Source of the DNA: Lamellibrachia satsuma
Taxonomy: Eukaryota; Annelida; Polychaeta; Sabellida; Siboglinidae
Assembly: GCA_033239005.1 (NCBI GenBank)
Contig: BSQZ01000073.1
Span: forward strand, 2,076,501 to 2,140,500
DNA: 64,000 nt
Direction of reading: 5' to 3'
Within the stretch, counting starts at the first letter, position 1; each line of letters starts with the position of its first letter. The translations under genes and the position numbers were made by a program. Positions 58,801 to 63,608 of the stretch are shown here, in pieces. The notes below the pieces were generated by a model that ran no database searches, had not been told where the DNA came from, and saw only the letters and a program-made list of their open reading frames with translations.

Positions 58801-61800
58801 GACCACTGGTTCTGTGAGTCCACAACAAGTTTATGTAGATAGAGACCACTGGTTCTGTGAGTCCACAACAAGTTTATGTAAATTGAGACCACTGGTTCTG
58901 TGAGTCCACAACAAGTTTATGTAGATAGAGATCACTGGTTCTGTGAGTCCACAACAAGTTTATGTAGATAGAGACCACTGGTTCTGTGAGTCCACAACAA
59001 GTTTATGTAGATAGAGACCACTGGTTCTGTGAGTCCACAACAAGTTTATGTAGATAGAGACCACTGGTTCTGTGAGTCCACAACAAGTTTATGTAAATTG
59101 AGACCACTGGTTCTGTGAGTCCACAACAAGTTTATGTAGATAGAGATCACTGGTTCTGTGAGTCCACAACAAGTTTATGTAGATAGAGACCACTGGTTCT
59201 GTGAGTCCACAACAAGTTTTTTCCATTTCCGCATGTGGGATCTTTTACTTCCCCTAGCATATATACCTGATAGAAGGGACCAACAGTAGTGTTTCTTCCG
59301 AAAGACACAGGGAAAGTGGGGTGAACAAAATTGCCCAAGTTTTGAAACAGCAGAGCAGCAGGATGACTCAAAACGCCCCACTGCACACGCACAACATTCA
59401 ATACGCCGCACTGCACACACACAACATTCAATACGCACACACTTTCAAGGTACGTCACATGATTTTTTTTGCCAACAAACATGTTGTCTGGGACCAGGAT
59501 GACATGTTGTCTGGAACCATGATGACATGTTGTCTGGAACCATGATGACATATTGTCTGAGACCAGGATGACATGTTGTCTGGAACAATGATGACATGGA
59601 AGTCTTTGAATCTGACACAAATCATAAGTTGAAATCTCCGTGAGCAGAACATGGTTTGTCAGTAGCGTGATGGGGAAAAACGTTTTGTCATCAACACTCC
59701 AATTCTCCAACCATACATTTCACCTGCATGGAGACACGCCAACCATACATTTCACCTGCATGGAGACACTCCAACAGTACATTTCACCTGCATGGAGACA
59801 CTCCAACCATACATTTCAACTGCATGGAGACACTCCAACCATACATTTCACCTGCATGGAGACACTCCAACTATACATTTCACCTGCATGGAGACACTCC
59901 AACCATACATTTCAACTGCATGGAGACACTCCAACCATACATTTCAACTGCATGGAGACACTCCAACCATACATTTCACCTGCATGGAGACACTCCAACC
60001 ATACATTTCACCTGCATGGAGACACTCCAACCATACATTTCACCTGCATGGAGACACTCCAACCATACATTTCACCTGCATGGAGACACTCCAACCATAC
60101 ATTTCAACTGCATGGAGACACTCCAACAATACATTTCACCTGCATGGAGACACTCCAACCATACATTTCACCTGCATGGAGACACTCCAACCATACATTT
60201 CACCTGCATGGAGACACTCCAACAATACATCACTACTGCCACAGTAACTTATTATTTGCAACATATAAACTTTTCAATGAATCATAACAGTTCTTGGACC
60301 AGTCTAAAACAAACCCACAGAAATAAAATATCTAGTTTTCATCAATTAATCATTTAAAAAACTATACTTCTGCCTGCCAAGTCTGAATACACAGGTAACA
60401 GGCAGCCACACCCACTCTAAAAACAGACTGACAAAAATAAGAGTCATGAAAAAGGTGCGACACAATGTTTAGTGAGATATTTATGGCAGCGTTCCAGGTT
60501 GGCACACCTGCATGATACTCAGTCATTTGTCTCTCAGACAATGGGAGACTGAGGGACGGGTCAGACACGGGGGTTTGACACAATGGCCTGGTGTACGAGT
60601 GTGGGGGGCGGGAAAGGGGAGTGACTCACCTAGGGACTTCTCAATGCCGTCAGGCAGGTAGGGATCATAGAAGATGATGTTGAAACCAAACACCTTGGCC
60701 CGCAAGGCCACTGCTGTGCCCACGCGACCTGCAGCACATGCCACACATGTCACTGTCCACAATGGCATGCTTTTATTGTACATACAAACGTGTTAGCTCA
60801 CCCCACTTTGGGAGATGATGTTACACACTGCCGAATAGTAAATTATTACTTCTTAGCAGTATATACTTGAAGAATGAAACTAGTTTCACTTTGTCAGTCC
60901 ACTTACATTAATAACATCGTCCTGTATGGAATGAATTATAACTGGCACTTTGCCAACATGGTCGAGTGTCTACTTACTTATTTCTATAGTTCCATTGTAT
61001 TAACTAGTAGGCAGAGAGGCCATCAGCAATGTTTTACTTTTTTATTTCAAACATTCAAAATGTTTTTATTAGGTTAAGTTAAGATGATTTAAATGATACA
61101 TTCAGAAAGGCATGCATCTTTGCTTTCTTTTAGTGTACGATACATGTACAAACCATTTAAATACCTACAACAATATAAATTTACGTAACATAGGTGCCAG
61201 ATTTTGAAAATATGCCTCGCTTCCTATATTGTGTCAGGAACACTAGTAGCAAATTTGACCGACTGTTCAGGATGAAAAGGGTTAAACTAAACATTCAGTT
61301 ATATACAAACACTGCATACTGACCTAGTCCCACAATGCCGAGCGTGTCCCCCCGGATTCTCGCTGATCCTTGAGCCGCATCCCTGAGGGACTCAGGGCCT
61401 GTCACCTTCTTCCCATCACGAACCATCACCGCAAGCCAGTAGGTGCGACGATACAGGTTGAGAATGAGACATATCGTAGTGTCTGCCACCTCCTCCACTC
61501 CGTAGCCAGGCACGTTGCACACAGCTATACCTACAATACAGGTTGAGAATGAGACATATCATAGTGTCTGCCACCTCCTCCACTCCGTAGCCAGGCACGT
61601 TGCACACAGCTATACCTACAATACAGGTTGAGAATGAGACATATCGCAGTGTCTGCCACCTCCTCCATTCCGTAGCCAGGCACACTGCACACAGCTATAC
61701 CTACAATACAGGTTGAGAATGAGACATATCGTAGTGTCTGCCACCTCCTCCACTCCGTAGCCAGGCACGTTGCACACAGCTATACCTACAATACAGGTTG

Positions 61801-63608: not shown

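Follow-up and report, generated by a model that had tools for sequence, protein, structure and literature searches.

Minisatellites that lie across an exon-intron boundary have been described in amphioxus, where they were found in the globin genes BflGb6 and BflGb9 and in Adh3 and were named mirages (PMC3087553). In that report, Adh3 data and the authors' own RT-PCR suggest that mirages do not interfere with regular splicing, and their unstable length is noted as well. The nearest general model is intron gain through tandem genomic duplication of an AGGT-containing segment (PMC3443670), and a report on human genes indicates that variable tandem repeats at exon-intron boundaries may also give novel introns (PMC2812944). 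The accessible portion of an account of earthworm metallothionein introns describes no splice-junction array (PMC12783039), and no annelid mirage was found by title and start of abstract in the open-licence literature.

Here we describe such an array in the CtBP gene of the deep-sea siboglinid tubeworm Lamellibrachia satsuma (assembly GCA_033239005.1), located in a window, i.e. the whole stretch analysed, of 64,000 nucleotides (contig BSQZ01000073.1, positions 2,076,501 to 2,140,500). Like the amphioxus mirages, the tubeworm arrays lie over an exon-intron boundary on the acceptor or the donor side, contain many copies with AG or GT, and have inner units that are nearly identical next to a diverged copy at the edge. 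Unlike the cephalochordate cases in that account, they occur in an annelid, with five arrays in three of the five genes examined in one animal, and at CtBP exon E3 the pyrimidine tract of the acceptor is duplicated coding sequence, accompanied by an in-frame 81-nt cassette; the splicing outcome in the tubeworm is predicted from its sequence. The likeness to AGGT duplication is that a duplicated AGGT provides paired acceptor and donor signals, so that splicing can remove the extra copies, whereas the tubeworm segment straddles an existing junction, would thus lengthen an old intron and make no new one, and is present in nine or more copies rather than two (PMC3443670).

The CtBP gene

The interval from 65443 to 56185 contains seven CtBP exons with assigned splice sites; tblastn with a public protein located additional coding exons on the 5' and 3' sides. 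The spliced model that uses the last E3 acceptor encodes an uninterrupted CtBP of 347 residues, and a PDB comparison of the translated E3 body and following exon identifies CtBP1/2 (best E 6.2e-43). The exons used below, numbered E2-E7 by us, and the last coding exon are as follows (window positions; a bar marks the splice junction).

63464..63608, minus strand: exon E2, donor TGG|GTAGGT
61324..61530, minus strand: authentic exon E3, 207 nt, GIAVCNVPGYGVEEVADTTIC...GIVGLG, from the last acceptor in the intact spliced model
60630..60728, minus strand: exon E4, from the spliced model
58347..58472, minus strand: exon E5, from the spliced model
57519..57650, minus strand: exon E6, from the spliced model
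56185..56358, minus strand: exon E7, from the spliced model, real acceptor TTTACTTACAG|GTCCGC
55668..55868, minus strand: last coding exon, ...KPESSEVH, extent of the tblastn match with an approximate start

A separate 43-bp array, at 63617-64000 and continuing past the window end, stops 8 nt before E2 (63608) and leaves its acceptor outside. Beyond the window (78078-77920 and 68951-68655), the deposited CtBP model starts with a THAP domain (PF05485) encoded about 12 kb upstream; inside it, the short piece QSVRRQSVRR looks by eye like a possible mis-predicted exon.

An 85-bp array at the acceptor of exon E3

61451..62272, minus strand: 85-bp mirage minisatellite over the intron/exon acceptor junction, 9.7 copies, 97% match (Tandem Repeats Finder, TRF)
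61531..62210, minus strand: eight complete 85-bp units, bounded by the first and the last junction
62211..62272, minus strand: leftmost partial copy, which ends in the first acceptor and gives its pyrimidine tract

The array contains nine TTGTAG|GTATAG junctions, whose last intron bases are 62211, 62126, 62041, 61956, 61871, 61786, 61701, 61616 and 61531, so that all eight intervals are exactly 85. From -26 to +15 the nine junctions are identical, and each keeps the AG|GT splice signal. The junctions and the gene model agree with the original prediction of a CtBP gene with a repeated acceptor and an AG|GT core. Its figure of nearly ten repeats fits the 9.7 copies but not the acceptors, which number nine because the leftmost partial copy (from about 62272) has none at its own start, and its estimate of about 75 exonic bases per unit gives way to 80 nt, followed in every full unit by 5 nt of intron (TGTAG). 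The final copy continues into the E3 exon body. At every acceptor of the array, the real one included, the polypyrimidine stretch is the coding sequence (LILNLY) of the copy before it; since the sequence ahead of each acceptor is the end of a previous coding copy, the ancestral intron end of E3 is no longer visible.

Searching the 735-Mb assembly at the DNA level gave five matches, all inside the array itself, with the best candidates alone being scored. A chance origin of the array is ruled out by its length and identity. Five columns vary among the units, with the variants in shared combinations. All five columns fall at unit positions 15-54 (40 bases) and none at the other 45 positions (chance 0.02), a clustering that is too weak to argue for selection on splice signals. 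With a unit that extends across the exon-intron boundary, the E3 array is a mirage minisatellite, a class known from amphioxus.

Reading frame and the deposited CtBP protein

If an upstream acceptor is used directly, the reading frame meets a stop, at codon 157 of the model for seven of the eight and at codon 167 for one. A donor-like ATT|GTAGGT, however, sits 4 nt ahead of each E3-array junction, and through it copies 1-7 form 81-nt in-frame cassettes with no stop; three combinations of cassettes (two or three copies each) were tried, and all were open. It had been proposed that only the copy nearest the exon body is readable, which is correct for direct use of the upstream acceptors but not for the cassettes of copies 1-7. 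With the frame argument corrected in this way by the ATT|GTAGGT donor, a minisatellite-encoded in-frame repeat in CtBP becomes a possibility.

The deposited C-terminal-binding protein of L. satsuma (P0002) has the highest identity among the matches listed (93% over the whole query), and 575 of its 577 residues lie inside exact 12-residue matches to the gene region; mitochondrial COX1, sought in the assembly as a species marker, gave no match. It reads ...LILNLYC-IAVCNVPGYG..., which corresponds to exactly one whole extra unit. One copy accounts for this sequence:

61790..61870, minus strand: copy 5, 81-nt in-frame cassette IAVCNVPGYGVEEVADTMICLILNLYC ending at ATT|GTAGGT

When copy 5 is joined to the last acceptor (a 259-nt intron), the product equals P0002 letter for letter across the modelled exons, whereas copies 1-4, 6 and 7, also open and in frame as cassettes, mismatch it. 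Copy 8 carries the same TMIC variant as copy 5 but is unjoinable to the last acceptor in the assembly, only 4 nt being left. The source contig of P0002 has 274,450 bases and is separate from the 3,164,180-base contig of the window; the protein contains two unit variants and implies at least two unit copies on its contig; a single assembly was analysed for copy number. The extra repeat of P0002 may come from gene prediction, or it may reflect RNA.

Among 120 homologues, the VEE-V/T/I-AD motif is repeated in three, namely P0002 and two sturgeon entries (P0001 and P0005) that are flagged UNVERIFIED_CONTAM and repeat larger blocks. Structure predictions were poor for the repeat-bearing P0002 (30 rows, mean pLDDT 45.9) as well as for the single-copy control P0004 (29 rows, mean pLDDT 42.8). 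Conservation was scored over the same number of homologues, 120, two of which were not scorable. All 118 scorable homologues have V and N at the positions where three copies carry a V-to-M change and one an N-to-S change; such changes are expected of untranslated copies. Changes of T to M or A fall at a position where 110 of the 118 have T and 8 have A, and the T-to-A change, being found in those 8 homologues as well, is no argument for untranslated copies.

Arrays at other splice sites

56345..56703, minus strand: second CtBP mirage, a 40-bp array (TRF) with nine acceptors at the start of E7, eight upstream and one real
G000:C73:88795-89453 (L018): 66-bp ten-copy acceptor array of DHX15
G000:C73:96215-96912 (L019): 27-bp 26-copy donor array of DHX15
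L032:2328-2469: degenerate 25-bp donor array of a CCT7-like chaperonin gene, at the exon end ...KVQGGALE

By textbook human weights, the real E7 acceptor is outscored by five of its eight upstream counterparts, equalled by one and stronger than two. DHX15/PRP43, with 11 exon matches on the same contig, was reached by a survey of coding potential at array edges. All ten copies of the 66-bp unit form one continuous open frame, and for this reason the acceptor in use is not readable from the sequence. In the donor array, 5 of the 27 other AG|GT donors score higher than the exon-proximal one and nine score equally (textbook human weights). Two more DHX15 arrays, at 90964-91198 and 93017-93351 of C73:1-200000, are close to exons yet leave the junction out, and no L. 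satsuma DHX15 protein was named among the best 120 of 6682 matches. Chaperonin genes gave 49 matches across the genome, and three genes were examined; the one with the 25-bp donor array we take by its sequence to be CCT7, and the other two, one of them viewed in part, showed no junction array by coordinates. As with mirages, both sides of the intron are represented, with acceptor arrays at CtBP E3, CtBP E7 and DHX15 and donor arrays at DHX15 and CCT7.

In all, arrays occupy 5 of about 76 splice sites in three of five genes, CtBP being included through the finding itself; the total of sites (20 + 20 + 36) was derived from exon matches and is a minimum as regards introns. Minisatellites are common here: the window (1-64000) has 68 TRF rows in 64 kb, mostly with units of some 20-100 bp and with up to 54 copies, and 303,899 bp of contig C73 hold 119 arrays with units of at least 20 bp and at least 2.5 copies. 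The edge survey relied on a position-specific base score, for which CtBP alone served as training set, and required at least 20 open codons, so that small overlaps are missed and its counts are lower bounds; of 454 scored edges, the 45 best were viewed. Among the arrays of the window, that at 39277-39670 (76 bp, 5.2 copies, 99% match) has a consensus unit, TTTCTACAG plus GAGCCAG|GTACTT, which resembles a micro-exon with both splice sites, and the flanks of a 45-bp array at 36547-36688 contain a minus-strand open frame that by eye resembles a retroelement ORF.

Choice among the acceptors and alternative explanations

Which of many identical acceptors is chosen had been posed as a real question, and the nine identical junctions uphold it. 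All nine score 6.7 when textbook human weights, not fitted to annelids, are applied. Since they are identical from -26 to +15 and hence near-equal in strength, splice-site strength is not what selects the copy used, and the E7 array, where most upstream acceptors outscore the real one, points the same way; distance may decide instead. The full exon measures 207 nt from the last acceptor versus 292-887 nt from the upstream ones. Exon definition would then set the copy in use by its distance to the next good donor. We consider it probable that this mirage of nine tandem copies in tubeworm CtBP is spliced in such a way, with the exon's donor paired with the nearest acceptor and the eight other identical acceptors ignored. 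The array probably grew by tandem duplication and unequal exchange; products of upstream acceptors would be removed by nonsense-mediated decay, and copy number could then drift almost freely. The mirrored rule, by which the first of many donors is taken, would suit the donor arrays of DHX15 and CCT7.

Recursive splice sites, or ratchet points, have an acceptor and a donor back to back as AG|GT. The same arrangement is present at all nine E3-array junctions, and 85 nt is a possible intron length, so that each AG|GT could act as acceptor and then as donor and the units could leave singly as 85-nt introns. A ratchet point regenerates a strong 5' splice site, whereas TAG|GTATAG, by textbook human weights, reaches only 3.4 bits, a value that 13% of 2817 GTs in 40 kb match or exceed; the range of the seven real donors scored is 6.3-10.7. 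The suggestion that these junctions also serve as donors of 85-nt exons is likewise right about the GT but meets this weak donor. At E7, GT is missing from two of the eight upstream junctions, and the remaining six have a donor score of -0.2; the DHX15 acceptor units begin with GC rather than GT after TGTAG, so that neither array offers a usable donor. Recursive splicing was therefore rejected as a general rule and seems very unlikely at E3. A different role for the units, as alternative exons running from acceptor TTGTAG to donor ATT|GTAGGT, would yield CtBP isoforms with extra 27-residue repeats in a number that depends on the array. The single extra repeat of P0002, its match to copy 5 plus the last acceptor, and the open frames of copies 1-7 and of their combinations speak for such isoforms, albeit with the reservation that P0002 may be pure gene prediction. 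By textbook human weights, however, the donor ATT|GTAGGT has a score of 4.8, lower than that of any of the seven real donors, copies are changed at residues invariant in every scorable homologue, and the two other homologues with a repeated motif are the flagged entries, and we regard cassette isoforms as unlikely. Taken together, the lack of a good donor for the cassette, the long upstream exons and the changes at invariant residues favour exon definition from the nearest acceptor.

Tandem repeats are prone to misassembly, a general reason to ask whether the 85-bp array is an artefact. P0002, however, comes from another contig (274,450 bases versus 3.16 Mb) and holds two different unit variants, which weakens this concern; in addition, the units differ at five columns in shared combinations, and another four splice sites in this assembly have comparable arrays. 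On these grounds an assembly artefact was rejected as extremely improbable. As to the origin of the arrays, a mechanism that targets minisatellite birth to splice junctions could account for their presence at 5 of about 76 sites, and four of the five, by their coordinates, end within 34 nt inside the exon where 1.0 was expected. Within 80 nt, however, 5 were observed against 2.4 expected, one of the 5 being the original finding, and arrays already fill 19.8% of the 304 kb surveyed (0.78 ends per kb), a density taken from contig C73 alone although the chaperonin genes are on other contigs. The splice-site excess is thus at most few-fold, and targeting appears quite unlikely; indiscriminate array birth with loss of arrays that damage exons explains most of the pattern and is nearly enough.

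Implications

The mirage class, reported from amphioxus, is hereby extended to annelids, with several cases in one genome on both the acceptor and the donor side. Arrays of identical splice sites take strength out as a variable and so provide a natural experiment on the choice of a site by position alone. They may also mislead gene prediction, and the public CtBP protein of this genus carries either a spurious repeat or a real but unusual isoform. A more far-reaching and improbable picture is that splice sites have been invaded wholesale, that a strict exon-proximal rule operates among up to 26 near-identical sites, and that the CtBP array leaks in-frame cassettes. If such a leak were real, the core transcriptional co-repressor CtBP would have a 27-residue repeat of variable copy number, which would already be visible in P0002.
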